From positions 1-58,111 of the forward strand of contig CALUVM010000013.1 in assembly GCA_944324255.1 (NCBI GenBank): a stretch of 58,111 nucleotides of DNA, in the 5' to 3' direction. Positions 402 through 49,703 of the stretch are shown here, piece after piece. Below the pieces are notes generated by a model that worked only from the letters and a program-made list of their open reading frames with translations, was not told where the DNA came from and searched no databases. Made by a program: the position numbers and the translations under genes. How positions within the stretch are numbered: position 1 is the stretch's first letter; every line of letters starts with the position of its first letter. The DNA comes from Candidatus Gastranaerophilales bacterium. GTDB lineage: Bacteria; Cyanobacteriota; Vampirovibrionia; Gastranaerophilales; Gastranaerophilaceae.

Positions 402-419
402 ACTTTATATATATGTAAG
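402..419 (+). promoter_or_regulatory. Shared upstream box (ACTTTATATATATGTAAG)
   Basis: This 18-mer lies immediately after a terminator and 22 bases before the ATG of the coiled-coil gene. The same box occurs upstream of other unknown genes near 16.14, 24.22, 45.30 and (variant) 49.69 kb. Its ends form a partial dyad CTTWA...GTAAG, so it could be a promoter -10 region, an operator, or both. Role inferred from recurrence only. Confidence 0.6.
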
Positions 420-441
420 ATATAAGAAGAAAGACAGAGCT

Positions 442-1290
442 ATGGGTGCTATTTCAGACGGAAGCTTTAATTATCTAAAAGAATACAGCAGAGAACAACG
501 TGCGCAGTATACTTATTTGAATGGCGGCGGATATGAAACTCATTCAACATGGGGTTCTGCATTAGCAACTGCACTGCCTTCTCTTTTTATGACTCTCAGT
601 TCTAAACTTGAAGGAGCAGAGGTTGATACCCCTGTCACATCTGATAAAACGGATTTATCTCCAGAAGCTGTTGATATACAAAAAGATATAGATAATGTGT
701 TGCAAGCAGCCGGCTGTGCTGATATTTCAGAGGTGCAAACCAAGCTTCAAACATCGCAGTCTGAATTAAAGGATATTAACTCACAAATTACATCTAACTC
801 CAGAGAGATTAGAACCTTAAATTCAACTATATCAGACTTGGAGAAAGCCGTTAAAGCAGTCGGAAATGACAGTCTTGATGTAAATGAGATTAACAAACAG
901 ATTGTCGATTTAAAGAAAAAAGTAGAGAAACTAGAGGCTGAAAAAGAGAAATTAGAAACTAAACAAGAAGAAAAAGTATCTGAAGTTGAAAAATACAGTC
1001 AAGCTCTAGAAAATCTTAAAACTCTGCAAAAGCAGTTAAAAAAAGTTGAAGGCAGAGATGCAATTGAGGAGCTGGTAAACAATGAATCAAAGGATTTTTC
1101 AAAAGCTTTCAAAGAGTTACGTGATGCTATTCAATCCGGAAATCAAGATGTCATCGATGAAAAAGCTTTGGCATTGAAAACATCCTATGATAACTATGTC
1201 AGTGCCCATCCGCACACGCATAATTCAATGGTTGAAAAGGGTTATAATTCAATGAAGAAGTATGTAAATGCCGCAAAGAAAGCTGTATAG
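442..1290 (+). CDS. Unknown coiled-coil protein
   Basis: A 282-residue cytoplasmic-looking protein with no signal peptide. Residues 1-50 are Tyr/Gly-rich with a short hydrophobic patch around 40-55 (ALATALPSLFMTLSS). Residues about 85-205 form a long heptad-rich coiled coil full of Glu/Lys/Leu. The C-terminus is basic (KKYVNAAKKAV) after a His-rich HPHTHN. No enzymatic motif is visible. It is a single-gene unit between a terminator and a pilin promoter and carries the shared CTTTATATATATGTAAG box just upstream. That places it with other orphan helical proteins here. A structural or exported role is a guess; function unknown. Confidence 0.75.
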   Translation: MGAISDGSFNYLKEYSREQRAQYTYLNGGGYETHSTWGSALATALPSLFMTLSSKLEGAEVDTPVTSDKTDLSPEAVDIQKDIDNVLQAAGCADISEVQTKLQTSQSELKDINSQITSNSREIRTLNSTISDLEKAVKAVGNDSLDVNEINKQIVDLKKKVEKLEAEKEKLETKQEEKVSEVEKYSQALENLKTLQKQLKKVEGRDAIEELVNNESKDFSKAFKELRDAIQSGNQDVIDEKALALKTSYDNYVSAHPHTHNSMVEKGYNSMKKYVNAAKKAV

Positions 1291-1296
1291 TACTTG

Positions 1297-1326
1297 TTGC
1301 ATATAATGGATATAATATGCTATAAT
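1297..1326 (+). promoter_or_regulatory. Sigma-70-type promoter of pilin-like gene
   Basis: TTGCAT and TATAAT separated by 18 nt lie 32 bases before the ATG of the pilin-like gene. A GAGG Shine-Dalgarno follows. Confidence 0.65.
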
Positions 1327-1357
1327 ACCCCTGTACTATTTTTTAAGAGGTGTTTAT

Positions 1358-2062
1358 ATGATAAGAAGAGGTTTTACTCTTGTCGAAGTGTTGGTTACCC
1401 TTGCTATAATCGGGATTGTAGCGGCTATTATGTCGCCTATTGTTGAAGGGCTTATTCCTGATAAGAACAAATCAATGGTGTTGAAATTGTCTAAAGTATT
1501 AGAAGAAACGAACACTGACTTATTGAGTAATCCTACATTATATAGCACAGACGGGTCTTGCGAAGGTTTTGCTTGCCAGTCACTTCCGCTGGATTCTCCG
1601 TATAACAGTGATACAAATTATCAAGGTACCACAAAATATCCGTACTTACTTGCTGCTCATCTTCAAATTGTTGACACGCCGGATGTTTCGGGTCAGGATG
1701 TTACTTTTAGAACGGTTGATAATGTAGATTGGACTGTAACATCAGTAAGTACAGGATTGTCGATGATAGTTTTTGATTTGAACGGTACTGATGAAGGTGA
1801 AAATTGTATTTACTCATCTTCCTGCAAAAAACCTGATAGATTTCGCTTTTTAGTAACTCCGGACGGGAATCTGCTTCCTGATGATGCGCTGACGGAAGCT
1901 TATATAAATAATTCAACAAAGCTTAATGATAAGAAAAAAGATTTATTAACGGCTAAAAATTCTACAAAAACTTATATAACTTCTATAAGTTCATCAACAG
2001 ATTTGGATAGTTTTGTAAAAGCTGATTCTGATGCTGATTACAGTTCTATTTTTAAAGATTAG
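1358..2062 (+). CDS. Type IV pilin-like / pseudopilin protein with prepilin leader
   Basis: Residues 1-5 (MIRRG) followed by FTLVEVLVTLAIIG give a class III prepilin signal. A prepilin peptidase would cut after Gly5 and N-methylate Phe6, and Glu10 is the conserved Glu5 of the mature pilin. The hydrophobic helix runs to about residue 30. The remaining ~200 residues are a soluble head with few cysteines. It would be assembled in the inner membrane into a type IV pilus or type II secretion pseudopilus. It has its own promoter and a GAGG ribosome site. gmhA follows 17 bases later, possibly by read-through. Major versus minor pilin cannot be told. Confidence 0.85.
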   Translation: MIRRGFTLVEVLVTLAIIGIVAAIMSPIVEGLIPDKNKSMVLKLSKVLEETNTDLLSNPTLYSTDGSCEGFACQSLPLDSPYNSDTNYQGTTKYPYLLAAHLQIVDTPDVSGQDVTFRTVDNVDWTVTSVSTGLSMIVFDLNGTDEGENCIYSSSCKKPDRFRFLVTPDGNLLPDDALTEAYINNSTKLNDKKKDLLTAKNSTKTYITSISSSTDLDSFVKADSDADYSSIFKD

Positions 2063-2079
2063 TTAAGGATAATTTAATT

Positions 2080-2655
2080 TTGAATAAGATTCTTGAATAT
2101 ATAAAGAGTTCTATAGAAACAAAAAAAAATATATTAGAGGATGCTTTATTGCTGGAAAGTACGGAGAGGCTTGCCGTAATTGTTTCAGAAGCCCTCCTTA
2201 ATTCAGGTAAAGTCTTAGTCGCCGGAAATGGCGGGTCTGCTGCTGATGCTCAGCATTTTGCAGGAGAGCTGATGTGCAAGCTTTATAAAAATCGTTCACC
2301 ACTGCCCGTTTTAGCTCTTACGACAGATTCTTCCGTAATAACAGCCATTTCGAATGATATAGATTACAAGTACTGTTTTGCCCGTCAAATTGAGGCTCTC
2401 GGACATAAAGGGGACGTATTTGTCGGAATTTCTACATCGGGCAATTCTGCCAATATAATAGAAGCATTAAAAATATCCCGTTCAAAAGGCTTAATTACAG
2501 CAGGATTAACCGGTTCCGAAACTACAGAAATGGATAAATACTGCGATTATCTAATAAAAATTCCTGCAAAAGATGTTCCGCATATTCAGGAATCACATAT
2601 TATGATAGTTCATATTTTAGCAATGTTAATAGAGGATAAAGTTTTTAAAGCTTAA
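2080..2655 (+). CDS. gmhA: Phosphoheptose isomerase (sedoheptulose 7-phosphate isomerase)
   Basis: A 191-residue single SIS-domain protein of normal GmhA length. [12 protein letters not shown] at residues 49-60 is the hallmark sugar-phosphate loop, and a later STSGNSANI segment is the second phosphate-binding loop. GmhA converts sedoheptulose 7-phosphate to D-glycero-D-manno-heptose 7-phosphate, the first step of ADP-heptose synthesis for LPS core. The start is TTG, chosen because AAGGA sits at good spacing and no ATG fits. Its 3' end overlaps the convergent epimerase gene by 11 bp. DiaA-like SIS proteins are the main alternative. Confidence 0.85.
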
Positions 2656-3580
2656 GTCTGTTTTTAAAATATTCTATTGTGGAATTTAAGCCGTCTTTAA
2701 TATCGACTTTTGGAGTCCATTTCAATTTATCTTTTGCGAGTGTAATATCAGGCTTTCTTTTTACAGGATCATCAGAAGGCAGTTCTTTGTATACGATTTT
2801 TGATTTTGATTCTGTTAAATTTATTATAAGTGAAGCCAAATCTTTAATAGTTCTTTCTTCAGGATTCCCGAGGTTTACCGGTCCTGTAAAATTCGGCGTG
2901 TTCATCATTCGTATCATTCCTTCAATAAGGTCAGAAACGTAGCAGAAAGATCTGGTTTGGTTTCCGCCGCCATAAATGGTTATATCTTCGCCTTTTAGAG
3001 CCTGAACTATAAAATTAGATACTACTCTGCCGTCGTTAGGATGCATATTAGGTCCGTATGTGTTAAAAATACGAATAATTTTTATATCAGTCCCAAACTG
3101 GCGTCTGTAATCTGTCATGAGGGTTTCTGCACATCGTTTGCCCTCATCATAACAGCTTCTTACTCCGATAGGATTGACATTACCCCAGTAAGATTCTATC
3201 TGCGGATGCACCAAAGGATCTCCGTATACTTCGCTGGTGGATGCTTGAAGAATAGTTGCTCCGTATTTATTTGCCAGTTCAAGCATATTTATTATACCCA
3301 TAACCGAAGTGCGTATTGTTTTAACAGGATTGTATTGATAATGCGGGGGGCTTGCCGGACAGGCGAGGTTATATATCTGGTCGATTACCGTAAAATACTC
3401 CTCTGTAATATCATGTTCAACCAGTTCAAAATTAGGATGGGTGCAAAATGATTCAATGTTTTCCATTGATCCTGTGAAAAAGTTATCAACACAGATTACA
3501 TAATTTCCCTCATCAAGCAGTCTTTTACAAAGATGAGAGCCTATAAATCCTGCTCCGCCGGTTACTAAAATTCTTTTCAT
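2645..3580 (-). CDS. UDP-glucuronate decarboxylase (UDP-xylose synthase)-like NAD-dependent epimerase
   Basis: An extended short-chain dehydrogenase/reductase of 311 residues. GGAGFIGS at 8-15 binds [11 protein letters not shown] at 115-121 holds the catalytic Ser/Thr, and Tyr144-x3-Lys148 is the catalytic pair. The CPASPPHYQ stretch near 74-82 and the [13 protein letters not shown] context are characteristic of UXS enzymes, which oxidise and decarboxylate UDP-glucuronate to UDP-xylose. This fits surface polysaccharide synthesis alongside gmhA and the later glycosyltransferases. GGGAG precedes the ATG. The gene is convergent with gmhA. Confidence 0.88.
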
Positions 3581-3614
3581 TAATATCTCCCTGTTTTCAT
3601 TTTAACATAAAAAC

Positions 3615-3643
3615 TTGATATATAACCGGCAATATTATATAAT
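3615..3643 (+). promoter_or_regulatory. Sigma-70-type promoter of second pilin-like gene
   Basis: TTGATA and TATAAT are separated by exactly 17 nt, and AGAGGG follows before the ATG. Confidence 0.7.
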
Positions 3644-4345: not shown

Positions 4346-4350
4346 TATAT

Positions 4351-15189: not shown

Positions 15190-16098
15190 TTATGCGTTGC
15201 TTGGTTTTGCTATCTGCCAGATTGCATCACCTATAATACCAACAATCAATCCTGCCATTGCAGCTTTTCCAGCCCATTTTGTTTTAATTGGCACCTTGCC
15301 TCCTTGACCTGCAATACCTGCAGCAGCTTTAACAAGACCATTAGCTGCAAGCATTGCACCTCCGGCACCTACTGCGCCGTAAGCTCCGTACTTAATTGCG
15401 TGAGCTGCACCGCCGCCTATTGCACCCAGAGTTTTAGCTGTATCCTGACTGCCCTTTTGGTCGATTCTCAGTCCGAAGCAGTGGTTAAGAGTTTGATCCA
15501 CATATTTTTCTGAAGAACCCGGCTTGAATTGCTGCTTAAATCCGGTTGCCATTGCATTATCGCCGTATTTTTTAATATCGTTTCTCAAATCACTTGAGCA
15601 AACTTTGTTATAAACAGCTTCAATCAATTCTGATGCTGATGTTTTAGGATTGTTGAACCCGTTTCTTTCATTAAGTTCTGCACTGTAAGTTTGATAGATT
15701 GCATTTTTTAATTTATCAAATTCCTGACAGATACCGTCTTGATCACCTTCAACAACTTTATCTCGCAAGTTTTGGATTCCCTGCATAACATCAGAGTTAG
15801 TTAAAACTTTTCTGATAAGAGCAGAGTCGGTTTCTCTGTTTGCTCTAACATCGTTATACAACATCATTGAATGCATATCACCGGAATGAAGCATCTGCGA
15901 AGCTTCAATGTTTTGCTGCATTTCTGCCATGATTTGCGGATAATACATTCCCATCATACCGTATCCGTATGGTGAATACATTCCATTCATACCATACATC
16001 ATAGGATCATATGAAGTATATGTCCCCGGTGCGCTTAATCCTAAGTACCCGAGTCCGCCCATTGAACCTAAACCTATTCCTGCTATTGGCAATGTCAT
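15190..16098 (-). CDS. Unknown protein: Met/Tyr/Gly-rich N-terminus, helical middle, hydrophobic C-terminus
   Basis: A 302-residue protein. Residues 1-55 are rich in Gly, Met, Tyr and Pro (GMNGMYSPYGYGMMGMYYP) with no cleavable signal. Residues about 56-205 are helical with three cysteines (GICQEF, KVCSSD, HCFGL). Residues about 215-302 are Gly/Ala-rich with two membrane-length segments (AVGAGGAMLAANGLVKAAAG and AGLIVGIIGDAIW). No domain is recognised. It has its own promoter element, an AGGAGG ribosome site and a terminator. Absence of a signal peptide with a hydrophobic C-terminus resembles specialised-secretion substrates or membrane-active proteins, but this is speculative. Confidence 0.75.
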   Translation of the reverse strand: MTLPIAGIGLGSMGGLGYLGLSAPGTYTSYDPMMYGMNGMYSPYGYGMMGMYYPQIMAEMQQNIEASQMLHSGDMHSMMLYNDVRANRETDSALIRKVLTNSDVMQGIQNLRDKVVEGDQDGICQEFDKLKNAIYQTYSAELNERNGFNNPKTSASELIEAVYNKVCSSDLRNDIKKYGDNAMATGFKQQFKPGSSEKYVDQTLNHCFGLRIDQKGSQDTAKTLGAIGGGAAHAIKYGAYGAVGAGGAMLAANGLVKAAAGIAGQGGKVPIKTKWAGKAAMAGLIVGIIGDAIWQIAKPSNA

Positions 16099-16135: not shown

Positions 16136-16175
16136 CTTACATATAGATAAAGTATTTCTATCTTTATAAATTGCC
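16136..16175 (-). promoter_or_regulatory. Shared bipartite element (GGCAATT-N15-ACTTTATCTATATGTAAG)
   Basis: On the minus strand GGCAATT lies exactly 15 nt before ACTTTATCTATATGTAAGG, 37 bases upstream of the glycine-rich gene's ATG. It combines both shared elements and is one of the two clearest copies in the window; the other is near 45.3 kb. Confidence 0.65.
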
Positions 16176-16268
16176 TGTTTTTTAGGTTTTTCTTAATAAA
16201 AGTTTACAATTGTAACATAAGTCTTTTTGCCTGTTTTGTTGTATCATATAGTATAAAAGGGGAGTGCT

Positions 16269-22840: not shown

Positions 22841-24031
22841 CTAGCTGAATATGCCGAACGTTCTTTCGACATTATCATCTCTTACTTGTTTAAGAGAATC
22901 CATTTCTGTTGTTATGGAGCTTCTCTCTGTTTCAAGTTTGCTTAAATCTGTGTCATATTTTGAATCCTTTTGATTAATTTTATCAAGTTCATATTCATAT
23001 TCTGCTTCAGCTCTTTTTAAATCTGTTTCGTCCTGAACTTCCTGCAGATAATTTTCGTTTGTACTGGTTGCAACATTTGTGTCAATCCAGCCGGCGTCTG
23101 CACCGTCGCCTTCAAATACTTGAATAGTAATCAGTCCGGCTTCTACCATGTTTTTGAACCATTCTGTGCCTGATTCTCCGCTCTGATACTGCTTTTCAAT
23201 AGGCTGACAACCGCCTGCATCTTCGATTGCTTCAAACAATCGTACATAATAATTAAATTCTCTTTCAAAATCCTCCCAGCTTTTATCCGGATATTCTAAT
23301 GTTTCACTCTGAGATGTCGCTTCTTCGCCATTTTCTGTCGCTTCGGCTTCGACATCCCTGCTTGCATCTTTATCAATATTCATCTGAGCAAATATTTCTG
23401 AAGCGTATTTTTTATACAATAGATCTCTAAATGATTGTAAAGCTTCACGTTTTGCGTTATCACCTTCTGCGGATTCAATTTTCTCAAAAGCTTCTGTTAA
23501 TTCGGAATCATTAGTGTGAGCATCATATACTTTCTGTTCGCATTCTGTCATATATAAACTATGCCCGCTACCGCCTTCAGAATCATACCCGTAATTATCC
23601 AGAGCTGTACCAATACCAATTTCACTGCCCTGTTTCCACTCATCTCCCCATCCAAAATTCTCTTCAAAACCTATCATTGCATATGCAAAAGAATATTTGT
23701 CATTGTAGGATTGAGCTTTATTATAAACATCTTCCGGTACAATAAGATTCCCGCTCTTTGTATCTCTAAGTGCATACTGTTTAACTCTGCTGTTACTGTA
23801 TTCGCATAATGAATTAAAGTTTGCATCTACATATCTTACAGAAGCATCGTCATTTCTAAAGGCTACCTGAATTTTAGTTGCATCTAAAGCATCACAATAG
23901 TTCTGGTACAACTCATCTTTCTGAGTTGCCAAAGCTATCTTTTGAGACTCTATACTTTGCGCTTTTAGCTCAATATCGTGGAGTCTGCTGGTCAAAGATA
24001 GTAATCTAGCTTGTGACGCCGCCATTCCCAT
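22841..24031 (-). CDS. Unknown protein with paired N- and C-terminal coiled coils; FliA-type promoter
   Basis: A 396-residue protein with no signal peptide. The N-terminus MGMAASQARLLSLTSRLHD opens a helical region of about 55 residues (ELKAQSIESQKIALATQKDEL). The middle (about 60-325) is acidic and mixed, with a few cysteines. The last 65 residues return to a coiled coil (DLKRAEAEYEYELDKI ... LSKLETERSSITTEM) ending ERTFGIFS. Helices at both ends around a variable centre is the layout of flagellar axial proteins, though no flagellin signature is present. A near-consensus sigma-28 promoter lies just upstream and AAGGA precedes the ATG. Function unknown; a flagellum-linked or exported role is my inference. 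Confidence 0.75.
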   Translation of the reverse strand: MGMAASQARLLSLTSRLHDIELKAQSIESQKIALATQKDELYQNYCDALDATKIQVAFRNDDASVRYVDANFNSLCEYSNSRVKQYALRDTKSGNLIVPEDVYNKAQSYNDKYSFAYAMIGFEENFGWGDEWKQGSEIGIGTALDNYGYDSEGGSGHSLYMTECEQKVYDAHTNDSELTEAFEKIESAEGDNAKREALQSFRDLLYKKYASEIFAQMNIDKDASRDVEAEATENGEEATSQSETLEYPDKSWEDFEREFNYYVRLFEAIEDAGGCQPIEKQYQSGESGTEWFKNMVEAGLITIQVFEGDGADAGWIDTNVATSTNENYLQEVQDETDLKRAEAEYEYELDKINQKDSKYDTDLSKLETERSSITTEMDSLKQVRDDNVERTFGIFS

Positions 24032-24095: not shown

Positions 24096-24127
24096 AACTT
24101 TATATCAAAATTGTTACAAATGTTTAC

Positions 24128-24155
24128 AAAAATAAAGCTTCTCATCTTGAGAAGC
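24128..24155 (-). terminator. Rho-independent terminator of the radical SAM operon
   Basis: Minus strand GCTTCTCA-AGA-TGAGAAGC followed by TTTATTTTTG. A transcript starting at the CTTTATATATATGTAAG box 60 bases upstream would also run into it. Confidence 0.8.
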
Positions 24156-24212
24156 GGGGAAAAGGTTATAGGAAGGGAATTTAGGATTAAAAATTTTTTT
24201 TTACATCTTGCA

Positions 24213-24230
24213 CTTACATATATATAAAGT
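24213..24230 (-). promoter_or_regulatory. Shared upstream box (ACTTTATATATATGTAAG)
   Basis: Exact repeat, on the minus strand, of the 18-mer upstream of the coiled-coil gene at 442. Here it is about 180 bases from the start codon, upstream of a terminator hairpin, so if it drives transcription the leader would be attenuated. Confidence 0.55.
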
Positions 24231-24277
24231 ATATACGGAATGCCTAATTTCATTTTTGAGTATATTTGTTACAAAAC

Positions 24278-25792
24278 TTAACTTAATGATTTTTTGATAA
24301 GTCTGTTGTATTCATTCATTAATAGCTGCTTAGAAGGGTAAATATCAATATAATCCCAGGGAAGTATGTCTGAAAATTCATACCCGTTAATTGCTTTATC
24401 AATGTTAATATTTAAATCTTTCAATAAAGCTTTATAGGCACCGTTTTTGCCGCCTTTTTTGTAGACTTCAATCAGATAAGGTGTCAGGGAAGAATCTCCT
24501 CTTGAAATAAGTGTCTGCCAGTAATCCCATTTTATACTTGAAAACTTCGTTTCAATTCCGAGTTTGGCGAGTTCTTTTTCCAGATACTTTTGTTTCATCT
24601 CTAAACTTTTGGACTCTTCTCGCTTGCACCACTGAAAAGGCGTATGAGGTTTGGGAACAAAAGTAGAAAAAGAAAATGTAATATTGAATCCTTTGTTTTC
24701 GGATTTTATTTTTTTAGCCAGAGTTATAAATTCTTCTATATCTTCTTGTGTTTCAGCAGGAATTCCTATCATCGAGTAAATCTTGAGACCCTTAAGTCCG
24801 TTTTCTCTTGATATTTTTACGGCATTTAATATTTGTTCTTCTTTAAGATTTTTGTTTATTACTTTGCGGAGCCTTTCACTTGCGGCTTCAATGGCTATAG
24901 TAGAGGTTCTTTGCCCTCCTTTTACAAGGGTTTTTACCATTTGCGGGGTGACAGAATCCGTTCTAAGAGATGATATACCCAGCTCAATATTTTCTCCGGA
25001 ATCAATTTTTTTCTCAATATATTCCATAATTTTGCAAAAATCAGGATGGGCACTTATTTGTGCTCCAAGAAGAGCAATTTTATTTGTGTATTTTAAACCT
25101 AAATTTATACTATCAATAATTTTTTCATAAGGATATGAGCGAAAAGGTAAGTTTAGATATGATGCTGTGCAAAATGCGCAGCGATTCATGCAGCCTCTGG
25201 CAACTTCAATTACAAAAGTATCCTTAAAATAGCTCTTGCTGCTAAGCACCGGTGTATATATAACATCGCTCAATTCAACCGTACTTTTTTTGACTGTTGT
25301 ATTAATACCCGGAACAAAAACACCTTCAATTTTTGATAAGTTTTCAAGGGTTTCAGCTCTGGGACGCTTTTCTTTTAGTATGTTAAGAATTTCTCTAAAA
25401 GAAGTTTCTCCATCTCCCATTGTAACAAAATCAAAGACTTGTCTCAGCGGTTCCGGATTTGTGGTAATAACAGGCCCCCCTGCAAAAATCAGCGGGTGGT
25501 TTTCATTTCTTTGTGATGCTAAAAGAGGAATTTTATATTTTTCTAAAATCTCAAAAACTCCCATAAAGTCAAAATCAAAAGAAAGCGAAAATGTTATGGC
25601 ATCAGGATAAAATACTCCGGATTCCGTATCCGTACAAACTCTTTCGACATTAATACCTTTAGTTGTATCGGCAATTTTTAAGAGCCACATATATCCTAGT
25701 GAAGAAAGTGCAAATTCTTCTTTAGCAGGATATGCCATCCATAATTTCAAGGCTCCTTTTTCTCTTGAAGGTGTATAAAGAAGTGTTTCCAT
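24278..25792 (-). CDS. B12-binding-like/radical SAM protein of unknown substrate
   Basis: 504 residues. The N-terminal 150 residues look like a cobalamin-binding-type Rossmann domain (IFAGGPVITTNPEP, FVTMGDGETSF). Cys201-x3-Cys205-x2-Cys208 in ARGCMNRCAFC ligates the radical SAM [4Fe-4S] cluster. LKIYSMIGIPAETQEDIEE is the SAM-side glycine-rich part. The architecture matches the uncharacterised B12-dependent radical SAM proteins often found near ribosomal or tRNA-modifying genes. The start is one base after the stop of the AI-2E-family gene, so they form an operon. Confidence 0.85.
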   Translation of the reverse strand: METLLYTPSREKGALKLWMAYPAKEEFALSSLGYMWLLKIADTTKGINVERVCTDTESGVFYPDAITFSLSFDFDFMGVFEILEKYKIPLLASQRNENHPLIFAGGPVITTNPEPLRQVFDFVTMGDGETSFREILNILKEKRPRAETLENLSKIEGVFVPGINTTVKKSTVELSDVIYTPVLSSKSYFKDTFVIEVARGCMNRCAFCTASYLNLPFRSYPYEKIIDSINLGLKYTNKIALLGAQISAHPDFCKIMEYIEKKIDSGENIELGISSLRTDSVTPQMVKTLVKGGQRTSTIAIEAASERLRKVINKNLKEEQILNAVKISRENGLKGLKIYSMIGIPAETQEDIEEFITLAKKIKSENKGFNITFSFSTFVPKPHTPFQWCKREESKSLEMKQKYLEKELAKLGIETKFSSIKWDYWQTLISRGDSSLTPYLIEVYKKGGKNGAYKALLKDLNINIDKAINGYEFSDILPWDYIDIYPSKQLLMNEYNRLIKKSLS

Positions 25793-41153: not shown

Positions 41154-42203
41154 CTAAATCAAGTTCAATGCAATACTAGGCAGCTGGTTAGCTGTAGACA
41201 ACAGTGTAGCAGAAGCCTGTTGTAAGATTGATGCTTGAATATAGGCAGAAGATTCTTCCGCAACATCCGTATCACGTAATGTTGATAAAGATGAAGTTAA
41301 GTTTTGTGATTGAACATCAAGTGCTGATACTGCTGATTCAACACGGTTTTGAACAGCACCGATTTTTGTTACTCTTGCAGAAATATCATCAATTGCTGTA
41401 TCTAAGAAAGCCAGCATTTCTTTCGGTTCGCAGTCTGCATCTGTTTGTAATACATATGTAGCTTGAGAAGCCGGATCCGCAGGATCATCAGGTGCGGTAT
41501 ATACCAGACCTGCGCAAGCGCAAGCAAATGCTTCAATATTATCAATGTCGCCAAGCTTAGTTACGTCCCCTCCGGCTGCAGTTATAAGTTGAGTAAGAGT
41601 TTTTCCGCTTTCAGCTTTCATTCCTACCATATCGTCTGTACCGAATAAACCGCTTAAGCTTGCGTTTGCAAATAAGTTGACTTTTAAATTAATAATACTG
41701 TTTTCATCAGCATATAAACCTACTTGAAGGTTGATGCCGGCTTCAGTCATACCAACTGCTTCATTATCATCACCGTCAAGGTTAAATGCCATAAGCTTAA
41801 TTCCGTTAAATTCAGCATTAGCAGCAATACGTGATACTTCTTGTAATCTTGCACTGATTTCTGATTGAATAGCTTTTTTAGAAGCTGAACCGTAAGTACC
41901 GTTAGCAGCTTGTTCTGTCAGGTCTCTTACACGCTGAAGGTGGCTTGTAAGGAGCTGATAAGTTTCTTCTGCTGTTGTTAAAAGGTCAATACCGGTAGCA
42001 GCGTTATCAGAAGCTACGTCTAATGAACTGATTTGTGTTTCCCACATGTTTGCAATAGAATAACCTGCTGCGTTATCCTTTGCATTGTTAATTTTAAACC
42101 CTGTTGTTAATCTTTCAAGTGACTGGTTCATAGAGTTTGTTGCACTTGTAAGGCTCCTCTGTGCAATTAATGAGGAAATGTTTGTGTTGATTGTGAGTGC
42201 CAT
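41154..42203 (-). CDS. Flagellin 1
   Basis: 349 residues. The N-terminal D0/D1 helices (ALTINTNISSLIAQRSL, LTTGFKINNAKDNAAGY, LQRVRDLTEQAANGTYG) and the C-terminal helices (IGAVQNRVESAVSALDV, ending LSTANQLPSIALNLI) are typical. The central variable domain is short (about 150-250), unusually acidic and contains cysteines (AFACACAG, DADCEP), which flagellins normally avoid. It would be exported through the flagellar type III apparatus and polymerised into the filament. GAAAGGAG precedes the ATG after a long structured leader with a CsrA-like hairpin. Named hag/fliC elsewhere. Confidence 0.96.
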   Translation of the reverse strand: MALTINTNISSLIAQRSLTSATNSMNQSLERLTTGFKINNAKDNAAGYSIANMWETQISSLDVASDNAATGIDLLTTAEETYQLLTSHLQRVRDLTEQAANGTYGSASKKAIQSEISARLQEVSRIAANAEFNGIKLMAFNLDGDDNEAVGMTEAGINLQVGLYADENSIINLKVNLFANASLSGLFGTDDMVGMKAESGKTLTQLITAAGGDVTKLGDIDNIEAFACACAGLVYTAPDDPADPASQATYVLQTDADCEPKEMLAFLDTAIDDISARVTKIGAVQNRVESAVSALDVQSQNLTSSLSTLRDTDVAEESSAYIQASILQQASATLLSTANQLPSIALNLI

Positions 42204-42360: not shown

Positions 42361-42589
42361 CCTTAATCTTAATAAGTATCCCTGTACGACTACACCTGTA
42401 AGTTTTGATTCTCATCCTTTGAGATAATTAACTTACGAAATAAAACATACATTCCTTGTATTTACTTATTAGATTTGTGATATATACTTCTTACAATAAC
42501 ATTATTGCTACACTATATAACAAAAGTAAACTATTTCTTTTGATTTTTTTACAAATTTTAAAATAAGTTAATATTTCTTAATTAAAAAA
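42361..42589. other. AT-rich intergenic control region, flagellin 1 / helical gene
   Basis: No reading frame is supported. It must hold the flagellin 1 promoter, but I found no clear sigma-28 or sigma-70 match. Minus strand GCAATAATGTTATTGTAAG...TATATATC faintly resembles the shared GCAATT element. Confidence 0.4.
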
Positions 42590-42627
42590 GGCAATTTTTT
42601 ATAATTTAAATACTTTATATATACAAG
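42590..42627 (+). promoter_or_regulatory. Shared bipartite element (GGCAATT-N15-ACTTTATATATAC)
   Basis: GGCAATT lies exactly 15 nt before ACTTTAT, as in the copies near 16.15, 45.28 and 5.91 kb. The box right half is CTTTATATATACAAG, two bases shorter than the full 17-bp form. It ends 10 bases before the ATG, so it overlaps the AAGGAG ribosome site. Confidence 0.6.
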
Positions 42628-42637
42628 GAGTATAAAA

Positions 42638-43156
42638 ATGACCCACGGAATTACGTTTAAATACGGAGAAACTGTAAACTATAAAGGCAATCCTGCAGAA
42701 GTTGTCTTTGCAACAGGGTTATGCGATAAAATTACGATAAGACTTGAGGACGGAACAGTTATCGGTGTTGATAAGAATGATTTATTTGGAATGAATAGAG
42801 ATAAAGATGTGGAAACTTCTCTGGACAAAAGGATTGAGTATTATACTAAAGAAATAGAAGAAAATAAGAATTTTATAAAAGTCTGCCAGGAAAGATGGGC
42901 AGATGCTAAGGAAAATATTAAAGAAATGAAAAATAAAATGGCGACATATCTGTCATCTCTGGGACTTTCACATGCTTTTCAAATTACAGAAGCAAGCCAG
43001 AAAAAAGAATATAAAGCAATGAGAAATGAATGTTCTGATTACAGAATGGCACAAATCAGAGCTTCTGCTGATATCCTTCATACTGCCAATGATACAGTAT
43101 CTATGGCTTTAGCCCGGGGAGATATACAAAATCAGCAATTATTCACTTCGGGTTAG
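42638..43156 (+). CDS. Unknown helical protein with small beta N-terminal domain
   Basis: 172 residues, no signal peptide. Residues 1-50 (FKYGETVNYKGNPAEVVFATG, ITIRLEDGTVIGV) look like an SH3/KOW-type small barrel. Residues about 60-160 are helical with a coiled-coil stretch (RIEYYTKEIEENKNFIKV). No known family recognised. It is transcribed away from flagellin 1 from a shared control region and carries the bipartite element, which links it to the orphan set. AAGGAG precedes the ATG. It may be a cytoplasmic accessory or chaperone-type protein, by inference only. Confidence 0.75.
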   Translation: MTHGITFKYGETVNYKGNPAEVVFATGLCDKITIRLEDGTVIGVDKNDLFGMNRDKDVETSLDKRIEYYTKEIEENKNFIKVCQERWADAKENIKEMKNKMATYLSSLGLSHAFQITEASQKKEYKAMRNECSDYRMAQIRASADILHTANDTVSMALARGDIQNQQLFTSG

Positions 43157-43221: not shown

Positions 43222-44232
43222 ATGAAAATGCTGTTGTTTGATTTCAGAGAATCTGAAAAAGAGTTCTTTGAAACAAGAGAATTTAAAGATATTGATATAA
43301 CTTTTATAAAAGCTCCTCTTAATGAAGATACAGAACTTACAGAAGAACAATTAAGAGAAACTGATGTTATAAGTGTTTTTATTAATTCAAATTTGACAGC
43401 GGAAGTCCTTGCAAGATTTAGCAACTTAAGAATAATAACAACCCGCTCAACCGGATATAATCATATTGATTTAATGTATTGTACAAGAAATCATATAGCA
43501 GTTTTTAATGTTGACCATTACGGGGAAGCCTCGGTTGCCCAATATACAACAGGTCTTATTATTACACTTGTAAGGAATCTTCTTCCCGCATATCTGGGGA
43601 TGAAAGAAAGTTCTATTAATCAAGTTCTTTACGAAGGTAGAACCCTGCAGAATTTGACAATAGGTATTATAGGCTGCGGGGCGATCGGGAGTGCTGTTGC
43701 AAAAACAGCCAACTTTTTCGGGATGAAAATACTTGTTAATACTTATATGAAAAATCCTGCGGTTAGTGATTTTGTTGAATATGTTGATTTGGAAAAACTA
43801 TTAAGAGAATCCGACATAATTACTCTTCATATCCCATACACTCCGGAAGTTTATCACCTTATTTCCTCTAAAGAATTTGAAAAAATGAAACAAGGAGTTT
43901 ATATAATTAATACGGCACGGGGAGAATTGGTTGATATTGTCGCTCTATATGAAAATCTAATAAGCGGTAAAGTTAAAGGAGCTGCTCTAGATGTGCTTGA
44001 ATGTGAGTATCTTGCTGTTAATAATGATAATCTTGCTGATGAAATACGAGATTCGGACGGTAAATGTATGGCGTCAGCTCTCCTTACTCAAAAACTTCTT
44101 GATATGGATAATGTAATAATTACTCCGCATATAGCATATAATACAAAAGAATCAGTTCACTATCTTTTAGAAGAAACTTTTAATAATATCAAAGATTTTT
44201 CAAAAGGTATGCACACAAATCAGGTATGTTAA
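43222..44232 (+). CDS. D-2-hydroxyacid dehydrogenase (D-lactate dehydrogenase-like)
   Basis: 336 residues. The NAD Rossmann motif GCGAIGS is at 151-157, INTARGELVD contains the catalytic Arg region, ALDVLE the Glu, and ITPHIAYNTKES the catalytic His. YNHIDL near 79-84 is also typical of the D-LDH branch. It reduces a 2-keto acid (pyruvate or an aryl pyruvate) to the D-hydroxy acid with NADH, fitting fermentation. AAAGGAG precedes ATG. Confidence 0.92.
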   Translation: MKMLLFDFRESEKEFFETREFKDIDITFIKAPLNEDTELTEEQLRETDVISVFINSNLTAEVLARFSNLRIITTRSTGYNHIDLMYCTRNHIAVFNVDHYGEASVAQYTTGLIITLVRNLLPAYLGMKESSINQVLYEGRTLQNLTIGIIGCGAIGSAVAKTANFFGMKILVNTYMKNPAVSDFVEYVDLEKLLRESDIITLHIPYTPEVYHLISSKEFEKMKQGVYIINTARGELVDIVALYENLISGKVKGAALDVLECEYLAVNNDNLADEIRDSDGKCMASALLTQKLLDMDNVIITPHIAYNTKESVHYLLEETFNNIKDFSKGMHTNQVC

Positions 44233-44259
44233 GTTTTGTAACAATTCTCCTTAAAACCC

Positions 44260-44323: not shown

Positions 44324-44722
44324 ATGGGAATCAATATCACACATACTATGGATTTATTCCAATTTGAGAACAAAGAAAATCTGAGAAACACCGCTAGAAA
44401 TATTCTAAATAAACAAGGTGCCTCAGAAGAAACTGCTCAAAAAATGGTTGAAAAAACAATCTTTGATTCTGATAAGCAAATCAAAGAAGTTTATTCTAAT
44501 CCGCAGCTTGCTGTTATAAAAGCTTCTTCTCAGATTTCTATGAATAATACCTTGAAAGAAACTTTAAAATATTTAAAAAGCCACGCTAATCAGAAGATTA
44601 CAAAAGAACCGGTGCTGGGAGAACTTTGGGAAAAATTAAATAGTACAAAAGAAGACTCTTATAAAGGAGAGCTTCTGGATTTTCAAATTGATGACTCGGC
44701 TGTCAATATCTTTGCTGCCTAA
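44324..44722 (+). CDS. Unknown small helical protein under FliA control
   Basis: 132 residues, no signal peptide, no cysteine. It is predominantly helical (NLRNTARNILNKQGASEETA, QMVEK-type segments) with a C-terminal hydrophobic-acidic end (FQIDDSAVNIFAA). I see no known flagellar protein signature (not FlgM, FliS, FliT or FliD). The canonical sigma-28 promoter just upstream marks it as a late flagellar gene. It could be an export chaperone, an anti-sigma factor or a minor filament part. It ends 4 bp inside the convergent YhcH gene. Confidence 0.75.
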   Translation: MGINITHTMDLFQFENKENLRNTARNILNKQGASEETAQKMVEKTIFDSDKQIKEVYSNPQLAVIKASSQISMNNTLKETLKYLKSHANQKITKEPVLGELWEKLNSTKEDSYKGELLDFQIDDSAVNIFAA

Positions 44723-45177: not shown

Positions 45178-45266
45178 AAAACTCTCCTAAACCTTCTCTA
45201 ATTCTAAATCTTAAACACTTTATTTACAAATTATCTTAACAAAACTTCACAAATAGAAGCCAAAAA

Positions 45267-45308
45267 GGCAATTATTGAATATAAAAAAACTTTATATCTA
45301 TGTAAGGT
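45267..45308 (+). promoter_or_regulatory. Shared bipartite element (GGCAATT-N15-ACTTTATATCTATGTAAG)
   Basis: Both shared elements are present: GGCAATT 15 nt before ACTTTATATCTATGTAAGGTTAG. The TTAG tail is also similar to the copy near 16.14 kb. It ends about 25 bases before the ATG. Confidence 0.65.
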
Positions 45309-45332: not shown

Positions 45333-45845
45333 ATGTTAATGTCATTCTGGATGGTCCAGAGATTAACACGCGAAATAAATGCTCTCGAAAAGCAGGCGAT
45401 GATGAAACAGATAGAACTGACTCACCATCAAAAATATGCCAGCGTTTTGGGAGGGTCTTCCATAATGACTCTCGGTAATATCGCCGGATTGTCAGCAGAC
45501 CTTCTGCCGAGAGCAGCTTTATTTGCACAGTACTCAGATCAGGTAAGTTCAATGAGTGCTATGCAGAACCTGCAAGCAATGAAGTTTATGGGAAGAGTTC
45601 CATACACGGGTAATCCGATGATGCAGTATCAGATGGAGATGAGTGCCTTCCGCAGTTTCAAAGAACAGTCGATGAAGGCTCTAAAACAACAGGAAGCTCA
45701 AATTATGAATGAAAAAGAAAAGGAAATACAACTTGAACTTAATGATATAGAACAAAGGTTGAATATAAAACGTAATCAACTTAATTCAATGAAAGAACTC
45801 GCAAGCAAAGAGGCGCAGGACAGCGCACCTAGGTTCGGGTTATAA
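45333..45845 (+). CDS. Unknown Met/Gln-rich coiled-coil protein
   Basis: 170 residues, no signal peptide. An N-terminal helix (WMVQRLTREINALEKQAMM) is followed by a less polar middle rich in Met, Ala and Ser (GGSSIMTLGNIAGLSAD; PYTGNPMMQYQM). A C-terminal coiled coil (about 115-155) contains LNDIEQRLNIKRNQLNSMKE. That segment resembles, residue class by residue class, the C-terminal LSKLETERSSITTEMDSLKQ of the FliA-driven protein at 22.8-24.0 kb. A G-rich TAGGTAGG precedes the ATG and a terminator follows. Function unknown. Confidence 0.72.
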   Translation: MLMSFWMVQRLTREINALEKQAMMKQIELTHHQKYASVLGGSSIMTLGNIAGLSADLLPRAALFAQYSDQVSSMSAMQNLQAMKFMGRVPYTGNPMMQYQMEMSAFRSFKEQSMKALKQQEAQIMNEKEKEIQLELNDIEQRLNIKRNQLNSMKELASKEAQDSAPRFGL

Positions 45846-45999: not shown

Positions 46000-46614
46000 T
46001 TATGTGTTTTTTATTACAACAGCAAAACTGTTTTCCAGATGATACACCTTATCATCTGTCGCAATTACATTATATTTAAAATGATGGGCAAATTCTAAAA
46101 AAGTCTCAGTTGTCCATACGCTGTAATGCTTGTCAGGATATCTTAAGTGTTTATTATATTTTTTGTGACGTTCTTCAAACTCCTCAAGAGTAGTACAAGG
46201 TTTATCTTTATCAAACATTCTTTCTTTATGTGGAATCACGCATACAATATATTTGTTTTTCTTTACTACACGCAGCCACTCATTTATCGCAGATACCGGA
46301 TCATAAAAATGTTCTAAAACATGGCTCGAAAAAACAAAGTCAACTGAATTATCTGCAAGCGGAATATTATCGCCTGATGCAAGTATATCAACAGGTTTAA
46401 TTGAATGTCCGAGCGTCATTTGCTCTTTTGTATAACAATCCTCTTGCTCTGTATGGTTGGAAATATCTATATTTATAGCTTTGAATCTGAATGTTTGATG
46501 AGAAGCTCCGCCAATTTCTATTCCAAAACCTTTGCAGTATTTAGAAATAATTTTGGGGTCAGCATAAATAAGCTTCAATCCCAGTTTTTTTCGAATAAAA
46601 TTTGATATTGTCAT
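46000..46614 (-). CDS. Class I SAM-dependent methyltransferase (Methyltransf_11 type)
   Basis: 204 residues. IEIGGASHQTF near 31-41 replaces the usual GxGxG SAM loop, and SVDFVFSSHVLEHFYDP near 109-125 is the motif III/IV region of small-molecule methylases. RVVKKNKYIVCVIPHKE is the post-III strand. The substrate is unknown, possibly a sugar or lipid. It starts 11 bases after the upstream exported-protein gene, so they are likely co-transcribed, with a weak ribosome site. Confidence 0.82.
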   Translation of the reverse strand: MTISNFIRKKLGLKLIYADPKIISKYCKGFGIEIGGASHQTFRFKAINIDISNHTEQEDCYTKEQMTLGHSIKPVDILASGDNIPLADNSVDFVFSSHVLEHFYDPVSAINEWLRVVKKNKYIVCVIPHKERMFDKDKPCTTLEEFEERHKKYNKHLRYPDKHYSVWTTETFLEFAHHFKYNVIATDDKVYHLENSFAVVIKNT

Positions 46615-46625
46615 AAAAAATGGCT

Positions 46626-47309
46626 CTAGTATACAGGAATATCAATCGGAGTAAGCAGTTTGACGGTTAAAACATCTCCCGTATTAATATATACGTCTTG
46701 TCCTCTCCTGAACATATCTGCAATGCTGTCACCTATAAAATATCCAACTCCGCCTATAAATCCGCCTATTGCGCATACAGGTGCTGTCAAATATTGAATT
46801 CCGGGTGCTGACTCTCCAGCTTTCATTCCGTATTTGGTTGCGTTAACCGTTATATCAACACCTTTCTGGTAATTATTTTTAACAGCTTCTCCATATCCGA
46901 GGTTTTTGTATAGACTGCCGTCATAATAGATGTTTTCAAATTGGCATACAGCCATATCTAAAGGAATTTGTCTGCCGGTCGGTGTTACAACATGATCAAA
47001 ATCCAGATATAATTTTGCGCCTCTTGAAAACATCTTAGCTGTTTTAACATCTGCAACGCTGCCTCTAACTATAGTACCGGCAGGGAGTACAACACTTGCT
47101 CCGCTTATTTGATCATTTAAAAGTGTAGCAGTAAAAGAATCTCCCGTGCTGCCGGAGAATGTGCTGACAGGCTGTAGGAATTCTATCTTAAATAATGTTC
47201 CTTCAGGAATCCTTTTTGTTCTGGCATCAGCTTTAAATGCCGCAAAAGAGCTTGTTGTTGTTAAACAAAAAACTGCGGCTAATATAATTAACGATTTTAA
47301 ACTTTTCAT
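46626..47309 (-). CDS. Exported protein of unknown function
   Basis: 227 residues from the ATG with AGGAGAG upstream. A longer frame to 47357 has no ribosome site and would put 16 residues before the signal peptide. Signal: MKSLKSLIILAAVFCLTTTSSFA. The mature part has a beta-rich domain (GTLFKIEFLQPVSTFSG, VVLPAGTIVRGSV) like domains that modulate surface or conjugal proteins, then a glycine-rich hydrophobic helix (CAIGGFIGGVGYFIGD), and ends with another strand pair (DVLTVKLLTPIDIPV). It is probably in the periplasm or outer membrane. Confidence 0.7.
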   Translation of the reverse strand: MKSLKSLIILAAVFCLTTTSSFAAFKADARTKRIPEGTLFKIEFLQPVSTFSGSTGDSFTATLLNDQISGASVVLPAGTIVRGSVADVKTAKMFSRGAKLYLDFDHVVTPTGRQIPLDMAVCQFENIYYDGSLYKNLGYGEAVKNNYQKGVDITVNATKYGMKAGESAPGIQYLTAPVCAIGGFIGGVGYFIGDSIADMFRRGQDVYINTGDVLTVKLLTPIDIPVY

Positions 47310-47360
47310 AAAACTCTCCTCTAAAATGCACAATGAGTATAGCACATTCAAGTTCAAAAA

Positions 47361-48497
47361 TCAATTTTCGTCAATCTTGCTAAAATCTTGCTGTAAAACA
47401 GCTTCAGGCTTTATTTTAACTTTCCGTACAAGGTTAGCCGTAACAATTGCCGTTAACGGTACACATATTACAATAGCGCAGCTTCCAATAAGTGCAGAGG
47501 AAATCTCTGTTACTACCTGATTTAAATTTATGAACTTCTGAATATCAATATTAGAAGCTAACAGAAGAAGAGGTAAAGAGCCGCCTAAATAAACGAGTAT
47601 TAAGGTGTTTGCCATAGTGCCTATAATATCCCGTCCTACATTCATTCCTGAAATGAATAATTCTTTAATCGTTTTTGTATTATCAATAGAAAATATTTCA
47701 TTGATTGTACTTGCAATAGACATAGCAACGTCCATAACGGCTCCTAAAGTTGCGAGCATCATCGTTGAGATAACAATACTTATAAAATCCAATTCCGGAT
47801 GAGCTGAATATAGGAACATTGTATTCTCATTGCTAAATCCGTTCAATGATGCTGCTTTTACTGCTGCAAATGACAGTATTCCGGCGAATATCAAGCTTAA
47901 AGCACATCCTATAACAGCGGAGGTGCTTTTTTTATTAAATCCGCCAACAAGATACATTGTTACAGCGGTTGAGAGGATACTTATTATAATAGTTCCCAGA
48001 ATTGGATCAATTCCCATTAGTACTAAAGGACATAGAAAGTTATAAATTAGCATACAAGTAGCAACTATTGATATCAGGCTGTAAAACCCTTTTTTCCTTC
48101 CGACATAAATTAGCAATCCGCAAAAAATCAAAGAAAGCCACAATAAAACACCGGAACGATGTATATCTTCGATTGAATATTCAATTCCGCTGCCAGTATC
48201 TTCTACGTGCAAAATAACTTTACTGCCCTGCTTGAGTTTAATATCGTAGTATGGGTTACCTGTCAGGATGTTATCAAGAATGACGGTTTCGCCTTTATCA
48301 GCACCTTTAATTATTTTTATTTCCGCTGTCTGCTTAACCTGAGCTACTTCTGAATTTTCATTTAAATCAATATAGTCAACTCTTTGAACCAGACCCAGTT
48401 CAGAGGGGTAAATTTTACCTGTATCAATCGGGTTATCCGCAAATGCATAAGAAACAAAAGTGAAAAAACACATTAATATAAGTAAAAATCTTTTCAT
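47361..48497 (-). CDS. YibE/F family membrane protein
   Basis: 378 residues from the ATG preceded by AAGGA at 7 nt. The upstream extension to 48518 lacks one. A signal or anchor (MKRFLLILMCFFTFVSYAFA), a soluble region of about 90 residues, then seven or eight TM segments: GLLIYVGRKKG, TLGAVMDVAMSIASTINEI and GMNVGRDIIGTMANTLILVY are the family's conserved parts. Function is unknown beyond a reported link to stress or antibiotic tolerance in other bacteria. It begins 10 bases after the ruvB stop, on the same strand. Confidence 0.9.
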   Translation of the reverse strand: MKRFLLILMCFFTFVSYAFADNPIDTGKIYPSELGLVQRVDYIDLNENSEVAQVKQTAEIKIIKGADKGETVILDNILTGNPYYDIKLKQGSKVILHVEDTGSGIEYSIEDIHRSGVLLWLSLIFCGLLIYVGRKKGFYSLISIVATCMLIYNFLCPLVLMGIDPILGTIIISILSTAVTMYLVGGFNKKSTSAVIGCALSLIFAGILSFAAVKAASLNGFSNENTMFLYSAHPELDFISIVISTMMLATLGAVMDVAMSIASTINEIFSIDNTKTIKELFISGMNVGRDIIGTMANTLILVYLGGSLPLLLLASNIDIQKFINLNQVVTEISSALIGSCAIVICVPLTAIVTANLVRKVKIKPEAVLQQDFSKIDEN

Positions 48498-48507
48498 AAC
48501 AAAATCC

Positions 48508-49533
48508 TTATGAATCAAATAATGAAGTCTGGCAAGACGGCTGTTTTATACCAAGATGTCTGTAGCCTTCAGGAGAAACTTTTCTTCCTCTCGGAGTTCT
48601 TTGCAGAAAACCTGCTTGCAGAAGATAGGGTTCACATACATCTTCAATAGTTCTAACATCTTCACTTAAAGCGGCAGCAATTGTTTCAATCCCGACAGGT
48701 CCTCCGTCATATTTTTCAATAATTAGATTTAATAAAGCCCTGTCTGTGGTATCTAATCCGAATTTATCAATCTTCAGTATATCAAGGGATTCATTTGCGA
48801 CTATATCATTAATAACCCCGTCGTATTTTACTATAGCAAAATCGGAAACACGTTTCACCAGCCTATTTGCTATTCTCGGGGTTCCTCTTGAACGCATAGC
48901 AATGGCTTTAGCTCCGTCAGAAGTGATATCAATATCAAGAATACGTGCTGTTCGCATTACTACCCGAGAAAGCTCTTCTACAGTATAAAATTCTAATCTG
49001 TATATCATTCCAAAACGATCTCTAAGCGGTCCTGAAAGTTCTCCGGCTTTTGTTGTTGCTCCAATTAAAGTGAACTTTGGTATCGGTATGCGCAATGTTT
49101 TTGCGGTCTGACTTTTTCCGGTAGTCATATCAAGAGTAAAATCCTCCATTGCAGGATAGAGAATCTCTTCCGCTACTTTATTTAGACGGTGAATTTCATC
49201 TATAAATAGGATTTCTCCGCCTTTTAATGACATTAAAATTCCTATAATATCTCTGGGGCGTTCGAGAGCCGGTGCAGAAGTGATTTTTATATCAACACCC
49301 ATTTGAGCCGCAATAACTCCGGCTATAGTAGTTTTCCCCAATCCCGGCGGTCCGTAAAAGAGTAAATGGTCTAGAGGTTTATTCCTGCGTTTTGCAGCCT
49401 CAAGAGTTATCTTAAGAGTTTCTTTTAAAGCACTTTGCCCTATATAACTATCAAAATCTTTTGGCCGGATACTGTTTTCGAAGGTTTTGTCATACTCAAT
49501 ACTATCCGGTTTTATTACCGGATTTTTTTTCAT
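48508..49533 (-). CDS. ruvB: Holliday junction branch migration ATPase RuvB
   Basis: 341 residues from the ATG with AAAGGG in front; a 14-codon longer start at 49575 lacks a ribosome site. GPPGLGKTT (61-69) is Walker A, ILFIDEIHR Walker B, IGATTKAGELSGPLRDRFG sensor 1 with the arginine finger, and RGTPRIANRL sensor 2. The C-terminal winged helix includes GGPVGIETIAAALSED and ends QTSLFDS. RuvA and RuvC are not in the window. The YibE/F gene follows in the same direction. Confidence 0.97.
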   Translation of the reverse strand: MKKNPVIKPDSIEYDKTFENSIRPKDFDSYIGQSALKETLKITLEAAKRRNKPLDHLLFYGPPGLGKTTIAGVIAAQMGVDIKITSAPALERPRDIIGILMSLKGGEILFIDEIHRLNKVAEEILYPAMEDFTLDMTTGKSQTAKTLRIPIPKFTLIGATTKAGELSGPLRDRFGMIYRLEFYTVEELSRVVMRTARILDIDITSDGAKAIAMRSRGTPRIANRLVKRVSDFAIVKYDGVINDIVANESLDILKIDKFGLDTTDRALLNLIIEKYDGGPVGIETIAAALSEDVRTIEDVCEPYLLQAGFLQRTPRGRKVSPEGYRHLGIKQPSCQTSLFDS

Positions 49534-49685
49534 ATGTACCCTTTCCCTCTTATTATCGTCTGAAATAATTGCCATACAAAAATATTAGCATAAATCGCCG
49601 GGATTATAAAATATTTTCATTTTGATAACTTATGTAAAGTTTTGTAACAAATAAAACAAAGCGTGAAATTGAAGAAATTATATAT

Positions 49686-49703
49686 ACTTAATATATATAT
49701 AAG
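49686..49703 (+). promoter_or_regulatory. Variant of the shared upstream box (ACTTAATATATATATAAG)
   Basis: CTTA-N9-TAAG keeps the 17-bp length and dyad ends of the CTTTATATATATGTAAG box. It is 25 bases before the ATG of the glycine-rich gene. TAAAGTTTTGTAACAAATA lies about 50 bases further upstream. Confidence 0.5.

Follow-up and report, generated by a model that had tools for sequence, protein, structure and literature searches.

A composite promoter with an HLR1-type repeat, probably read by RpaB, ahead of small proteins and small RNAs in a Gastranaerophilales genome

Promoter loci in the window

The DNA analyzed here is a stretch of 58,111 nucleotides (nt; contig CALUVM010000013.1, hereafter the window) from a member of the Gastranaerophilales, which are non-photosynthetic gut Melainabacteria and belong to the sister class of the photosynthetic cyanobacteria. 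The genome from which it comes (1.89 Mb) is assembled in 43 contigs, and 89% of the window is coding according to the gene list made in this analysis. A 17-bp box recurs in its intergenic DNA, with no mismatches at 403 and 24213, one at 16136 and 45290, and two at 49687. This box forms the -10-like third of a ~73-bp promoter, in which it is preceded by a -35-like element and, further upstream, by a repeat resembling HLR1, the published site of the regulator RpaB (KTTACAWW-N2-KTTACAWW; PMC13421787). Two promoter classes are distinguished by their -35-like element; loci, contigs, genomes and families of the order are numbered with the prefixes L, C, G, and f.

The first site belongs to class 1 and has an exact box at 403-419 on the forward strand (model match 348-419, 50.2 bits). 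Its HLR1-like repeat (347-364, reverse strand) departs from KTTACAWWN2KTTACAWW at three positions, making it the weakest among the window sites, and its -35-like TGAAATC (380-386, forward strand) overlaps, by eye, a terminator-like hairpin behind the open reading frame (ORF) at 15-341. The gene that follows (442-1290, forward strand) begins with an ATG 22 nt past the box and encodes a coiled-coil protein of 282 amino acids (aa), with no Pfam or NCBIfam family above cut-off. At the second site, of class 2, the box (16136-16152, reverse strand, one mismatch; model match 16136-16209, 45.1 bits) is accompanied by the -35-like AGGCAATTT (16168-16176, reverse strand) and by a repeat with two mismatches (16193-16210, forward strand). 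The gene behind it (15190-16098, reverse strand; ATG 37 nt past the box) encodes 302 aa with a Gly/Met/Tyr-rich N-terminus, and likewise has no family above cut-off. The other class 2 box with one mismatch (45290-45306, forward strand; model match 45234-45306, 49.7 bits) has a repeat in forward orientation (45236-45253, forward strand, two mismatches) and the -35-like AGGCAATTA (45266-45274, forward strand), and leads to a gene for 170 aa (45333-45845, forward strand; ATG 26 nt past the box); a protein similar by eye (L077) stands behind the same promoter in genome G019.

The site at 49687-49703 (forward strand, two mismatches; model match 49632-49703, 50.9 bits) had been set apart in the initial annotation as a dyad variant of the box. 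Its symmetry is confined to CTT...AAG, for which reason a dyad operator was rejected, and it belongs to class 1 with the sites at 403 and 24213. It has an exact HLR1 (GTTACAAAACTTTACATA; 49631-49648, reverse strand) and the -35-like TGAAATT (49664-49670, forward strand), followed by a gene (49729-50901, forward strand; ATG 25 nt past the box) for 390 aa with a His/Gly-rich N-terminus and no family above cut-off. The remaining class 1 site combines an exact box (24213-24229, reverse strand; model match 24213-24284, 56.2 bits) with TGAAATT (24246-24252, reverse strand) and a repeat with two mismatches (24268-24285, forward strand). Here the first transcribed unit would be a small RNA, S4 (about 24128-24217, reverse strand), of ~90 nt with a predicted 5' end, a C-rich core, and a hairpin GCTTCTC/GAGAAGC (24137-24155) followed by a U tract. 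The initial annotation is corrected here: at 24213 the terminated RNA lies between the box and the gene at 22841-24031 (181 nt off), and the link between these two was rejected.

An additional class 2 promoter, absent from the initial annotation, is found at 42556-42623 (forward strand, 31.0 bits). It reads GGCAATTTT, then CTTTATATATACAAGGA (about 42613-42629), lacks the GTAAG end, and precedes a gene for 172 aa with no family above cut-off (42638-43156, forward strand). Pfam and NCBIfam gave nothing above cut-off for the regulon proteins tested, and we therefore name no function for them; among six regulon proteins compared with PHROGs, only the product of 442-1290 had matches, of coiled-coil type.

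Two further HLR1-like places in the window stand next to genes. An exact HLR1 at 24113-24130 (forward strand) lies upstream of the gene at 22841-24031 (product beginning MGMAASQARLL) with no box at the usual distance; in another genome (L078), a gene whose product has a similar N-terminus comes after a box-driven short RNA. An HLR1 with one mismatch at 44225-44242 (reverse strand) lies upstream of a 132-aa gene (44324-44722) with no clear box.

Frequency of the box in the window and the genome

A mismatch scan of the window recovers the five copies at the positions and strands first reported, each facing a downstream gene, and bears out the claim that their recurrence exceeds what AT-richness would give. 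With up to two mismatches, the intergenic DNA of the window holds five matches, whereas 200 dinucleotide shuffles gave 0.01 on average and never more than 1; neither coding nor shuffled DNA contains the box as often. With up to three mismatches, the whole window holds six matches against 0.74 expected, a number reached by none of 100 shuffles. The sixth match (29737, three mismatches) is taken as chance, as the class 1 promoter model gives it 3.9 bits.

The box is also enriched beyond the window. Within its own genome, 22 sites match it with at most two mismatches, compared with four for a reversed control pattern, and each of 22 genomes of the same genus (own included) has 9-25 sites with at most one mismatch, compared with 0-1 for the reversed control. 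When the 22 own-genome loci were read, 16 boxes were found ahead of an ORF, at a distance of 17-37 nt (the ORF at L005 comprises 47 codons only), and four before non-coding RNAs, one lies at a contig end (L008), and one lies within a 782-aa ORF (L019), where it is probably there by chance. The enrichment, which in the loci read is mostly before genes of unknown function, supports the original proposal of a binding site or promoter of an unrecognized regulon.

Structure of the promoter

Two further elements appear when upstream DNA is aligned by the box alone: the HLR1-type 18-bp direct repeat and a -35-like TGAAATT or GGCAATTT. The initial annotation had captured only the promoter-proximal third, and had noticed neither these elements nor the non-coding RNAs. 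Sites were picked by the box, and HLR1 played no part in their selection. Their division into classes relied on the -35-like motif (58 of 60 sites assigned; L005 and L105 fit neither class), so that conservation of this motif within a class is partly selected. L008 and L019 were removed before logos were made; alignment A2 comprises 28 of 29 class 1 sites (without L003, in which the spacing is one longer) and alignment A3 comprises 26 of 29 class 2 sites (without L085, L086, and a second copy of L108); of the known sites of relatives, 20 of 25 from G019, 13 of 19 from G005, and 7 of 9 from family f7 were taken in.

In class 1, the three elements are conserved in fixed spacing and orientation and read TGTTAAGTTTTGTAACAAA, then TGAAATT, then CTTTATATATATGTAAG, gap-free across all 28 sites. 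In class 2, a looser repeat, mostly in the opposite orientation, is followed by GGCAATTT and by the same box. The box lies 15-16 nt from the -35-like element, and the spacer between the presumed -10 (TTTATA or TTATAT) and GAAATT or GCAATT is 17-18 nt. A pattern of the three class 1 elements, with up to three mismatches allowed, occurs 11 times in the own genome and never when reversed. The class models add members, among them the promoter at 42556-42623, which retain the CTTTATATA core and mostly lack the GTAAG end; as a diagnostic feature, the GTAAG end holds for a core subset only.

In class 1 the HLR1 repeat keeps to a single register and reads against the direction of transcription; it is exact in 12 of the 28 sites and has one mismatch in six, two in eight, and three in two. 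At this register 26 sites are within two mismatches, while the next-best register averages 3.5; as background, two or fewer mismatches occur at 0.014% of positions in the window and in 0.036% of shuffles matched for composition. A candidate for the protein that reads it is encoded at L041:14480-15262, the one protein in the genome that exceeds the equivalog cut-off for RpaB (NF045944, 355 bits against 330). Two other OmpR-family regulators (C6, C29) score 209 and 205, well under this cut-off, and the genome has three PF00486 proteins altogether. An HLR1 with one mismatch is found at L041:14444-14461, directly ahead of the rpaB start codon, and its position suggests that RpaB may regulate its own gene.

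As we picture it, the composite promoter would consist of an HLR1-type repeat, then TGAAATT or GGCAATTT, then TACTTTATATA(TATGTAAG), then a leader of ~20-40 nt. The box would serve as -10 region plus start-site tail, with transcription predicted to start at box position 12-14, 5-8 nt past CTTTATATA; loci L191 and L195 fit such an early start, because their ribosome-binding sequence begins within the box. Counted from this start, HLR1 would occupy about -70 to -51. RpaB has been described to activate with HLR1 at about -45 to -66 and to repress with HLR1 over the start (PMC13421787). As this predicted position is close to the activating range, RpaB would be expected to activate these promoters, presumably by binding the repeat and recruiting RNA polymerase as at cyanobacterial promoters, a step taken from the motif. 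The regulon would yield small proteins of unknown function, together with three or more families of small RNA that end at a terminator.

Distribution in the genus and the order

The survey of the box covered 37 genomes, 22 of the same genus and 15 of other families of the order. In the latter, 0-4 boxes with at most one mismatch are found in each, including three in each of three genomes of family f7, where the three elements recur at the same spacing before different proteins (L107, L110, L111). The class 1 model (E ≤ 1e-6) has matches in 107 of 117 genomes of the order. Six genomes of the same genus have 13-17 each, those of other genera in the family have 0-15, and those elsewhere 0-5; at this threshold there are none in the two genomes of family f2.

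Several loci show additional features. In family f7 (L105-L109; genomes G027, G032), boxes stand in tandem at a distance of ~450 bp; each of the two drives a short RNA with many CCTAAC repeats, behind which no ORF is evident. Some contigs end within or just past near-identical copies of the promoter (L008 at the end of C16, C7:1-71, C34:1-71, L084, L085), which suggests that duplicated segments of promoter plus leader may lie behind those ends. Regulon-like promoters at L186 and L189 stand ahead of short ribbon-helix-helix-like genes, possibly antitoxins judging by sequence alone.

Small RNAs behind the box

Four boxes of the own genome lead to a short terminated RNA instead of an ORF (L003, L007, L016, L021). 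Three putative families of terminated RNA, termed S1, S2, and S4, retain the box upstream across the genus. The S1 core (L003, L021) occurs in 57 of the 58 genomes of the genus, 39 of which have two copies, with no matches to reversed controls. A box-like element is present upstream at all 28 testable loci, with 0-1 mismatches at 20 and 2-5 at the rest, whereas random stretches mostly have 6-8. S2 (L016) occurs in 54 of the 58 genomes, again with no reversed matches, and the box precedes all 29 testable loci, with 0-2 mismatches. In public genomes, the box is found within three mismatches at 88 of 100 S2 places, compared with 4 of 99 random stretches. An exact 30-mer of S2 is present in at least 119 public stretches; among the 80 of these that were listed, 43 are titled Gastranaerophilales, Melainabacteria, Cyanobacteria (UBA6984, SIG26), or Candidatus Scatousia, 32 are titled 'bacterium', and five, titled Fusobacterium, Acinetobacter (twice), Heliobacteriaceae, and Muribaculaceae, are taken as misnamed assemblies.

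The terminator stem of S2 shows paired changes. In the GTTGC form (63 hairpins), pair 6 is CG in 48, TA in 13, and AT in two; in the GTTTGC form (32 hairpins), pair 7 is CG in 21, TA in seven, TG in three, and AT in one. Pairs are quoted within one form only, because the shift between the forms equals one insertion on each side, and the arms were anchored by our own rules, fitted to the very hairpin tested. When 23 S1 and 29 S2 loci were aligned with MAFFT, RNAalifold detected no covarying pair, which we ascribe to misalignment of the variable arms of the hairpin.

For S4, the search pattern is noisy: it gives 53 matches, spread over 35 of 58 genomes, compared with 28 for the reversed control, and none in the own genome; the S4 core in the window has diverged and is missed by the pattern. 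Alignment of the window sequence to S4 of L072, L226, and L239 scores 33.5-41, compared with at most 11.5 in 200 shuffles each. The follow-up in relatives was limited to 23 of 30 loci with a strict core, and in all 23 the box is present with 0-1 mismatch, and in 22 an nCTTCTC/GAGAAG terminator comes next. A cmscan of the window and 10 loci against Rfam 15 at gathering scores returned four tRNAs only, leaving S1, S2, and S4 as three small-RNA families below the gathering scores of that release.

The S2 core is complementary to leaders that carry UUAAGAGAG (12 nt in L001), and pairing of S2 with co-regulated leaders is suggestive, though no more than that. In a longest-match test on 53 leaders, S2 averages 6.74 nt against 6.07 nt when shuffled, with none of 200 shuffles as high. 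Duplex energies for the best of four RNAs have a median of -17.0 in 34 regulon leaders and -13.7 in 44 control leaders (p = 0.007; p = 0.024 for 16 strict leaders). Several results detract from this reading. An anti-Shine-Dalgarno control string also exceeds its shuffles (0 of 200 as high), so that shuffles alone cannot separate pairing from ordinary ribosome-binding sequence; the 12 leaders with an S2 match of at least 8 nt are equalled by at least one shuffle set; own leaders compared with control leaders give p = 0.076 for S2, 0.84 for S1, and 0.45 for S4; in duplex energies of single RNAs, and S2 is marginal (p = 0.051 and 0.046) and the others range from 0.2 to 0.7. The Pfam Hfq family (PF17209) has no match in the 37 genomes, and none in a Synechococcus control either.

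Pairing of S1 and S4 with co-regulated leaders is not supported: in the longest-match test neither is above shuffles (196 and 190 of 200 as high, respectively), and S1 has a small set of fitting leaders (AAGGUUAG in L014, L015, L077, and L087) without overall significance, and S4 has none. Should S2 pair with the leaders carrying UUAAGAGAG, the same regulator could set both transcription and translation of part of the regulon, which is the least secure step of the proposed mechanism. Sequence resembling a target is also present in box-driven short terminated RNAs at L152 (AGAGAGAGAG, for S2) and at L078 and L100 (GGTTAG, for S1).

Regulator and alternative explanations

We assign a probability of about 0.7 to the reading in which RpaB acts through the composite promoter to drive small proteins of unknown function and small RNAs. 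Several observations weigh against it. The ten class 1 sites of the own genome fit HLR1 less closely (two exact, two with one mismatch, five with two, one with three); the 28 class 1 sites are not independent, as they include orthologous promoters from three same-genus genomes and three f7 genomes; and the second half of the repeat is frequently TTAACA or TTAATA. Class 2 is looser: a repeat within two mismatches, at any place and on either strand, is present in 16 of 26 sites, and the best common register averages 4.0. HLR1-like places within two mismatches number 16 in the window (12 intergenic), only four of them in box promoters. Lastly, the own genome has eight sigma-70-family genes.

This last point leads to a possible, if doubtful, alternative, in which an alternative sigma factor recognizes the box and defines the regulon, with HLR1 as a secondary modulator. 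The sigma-70-family proteins include, by reading, a FliA/WhiG type and two short ones resembling extracytoplasmic function sigma factors, and the -35-like elements are unlike TTGACA; on the other side, no box precedes the window flagellin genes at 42203 (reverse strand) and 51451 (forward strand), on which ground a sigma-28 (FliA) flagellar regulon was rejected, and the box is unlike the sigma-28 consensus. It is unlikely that the same composite promoter is read by another OmpR-family regulator (C6 or C29). Members of this family bind similar direct repeats, and three PF00486 proteins offer a choice; Gastranaerophilales have also kept RpaA (PMC3787301, PMC4040986). Yet 12 of 28 class 1 sites match the published RpaB consensus exactly, and the C7 protein alone passes the RpaB cut-off.

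Quite improbable is the notion that the 17-bp box is the operator of another regulator and that the true -10 lies elsewhere. The box does exceed a -10 hexamer, and its GTAAG end is conserved in a large subset; it is, however, asymmetric, has one orientation, and lies 15-16 nt from the -35-like element and 17-37 nt before start codons, while the further sites keep CTTTATATA alone and neither class logo contains another conserved -10-like element. That the box reflects AT-rich chance or a dispersed repeat can practically be dismissed: for all its AT-richness and the near-identical promoter copies at a few contig ends, this is refuted by the shuffle, reversed-pattern, and genus-wide controls, and flanking DNA is unlike between most sites.

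Beyond control by RpaB of the composite promoter, we tentatively entertain a wider scheme, which we regard as possible but rather doubtful. In Gastranaerophilales, an ancestral RpaB system, known from the control of photosynthesis and the clock, might run a large regulon via one stereotyped promoter, yielding proteins and ultra-conserved small RNAs (S1, S2, S4, and the f7 tandem pair) that tune co-regulated leaders, with the RNAs of L152, L078, and L100 perhaps acting as sponges.

Comparison with known systems

Melainabacteria retain RpaA, RpaB, and NblS (PMC3787301, PMC4040986), the first two being noted also in PMC5877343, and a possible other function for the retained proteins was suggested in 2013 (PMC3787301). 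The promoters, proteins, and small RNAs described here offer concrete targets for that question, and with the promoter signature, members of the regulon in this gut order can be recognized by sequence alone. Among titles and abstract openings, with preprints and most subscription journals outside the scope, we found no paper on a promoter motif, an RpaB regulon, or small RNAs in Gastranaerophilales; PMC9025218, as available in part, adds nothing.

Sigma-70-type promoters have -10 and -35 elements ~17 bp apart and a short leader. The promoters described here share two elements at about this distance ahead of a short leader, and differ in having GAAATT or GCAATT with TTTATA/TTATAT, longer conserved edges (CTT, GTAAG), and an upstream repeat. 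With the RpaB/HLR1 promoters of photosynthetic cyanobacteria they have in common the 18-bp KTTACAWWN2KTTACAWW, an RpaB above cut-off, and a predicted position near the activating range. Unlike in those promoters, the targets are small proteins of unknown function and new RNAs rather than photosynthesis genes, the class 1 repeat is fixed in distance to -35-like and -10-like elements, and there are two promoter classes with mostly opposite orientation of the repeat.

A further parallel is the small RNA PsrR1, which forms a feed-forward loop with RpaB in Synechocystis (Kadowaki 2016, cited in PMC13421787). The likeness is one of design, in that a small RNA follows a site of the RpaB type and may pair with mRNAs under the same control. 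Here there are several RNA families rather than one, and none reaches an Rfam gathering score; PsrR1 has an Rfam entry. The targets of PsrR1 are photosystem I and phycobilisome mRNAs, whereas Melainabacteria are reported to lack photosynthetic machinery (PMC3787301). If the proposed scheme is true, the combination of RpaB with small RNAs would be older in this phylum than the control of photosynthesis.

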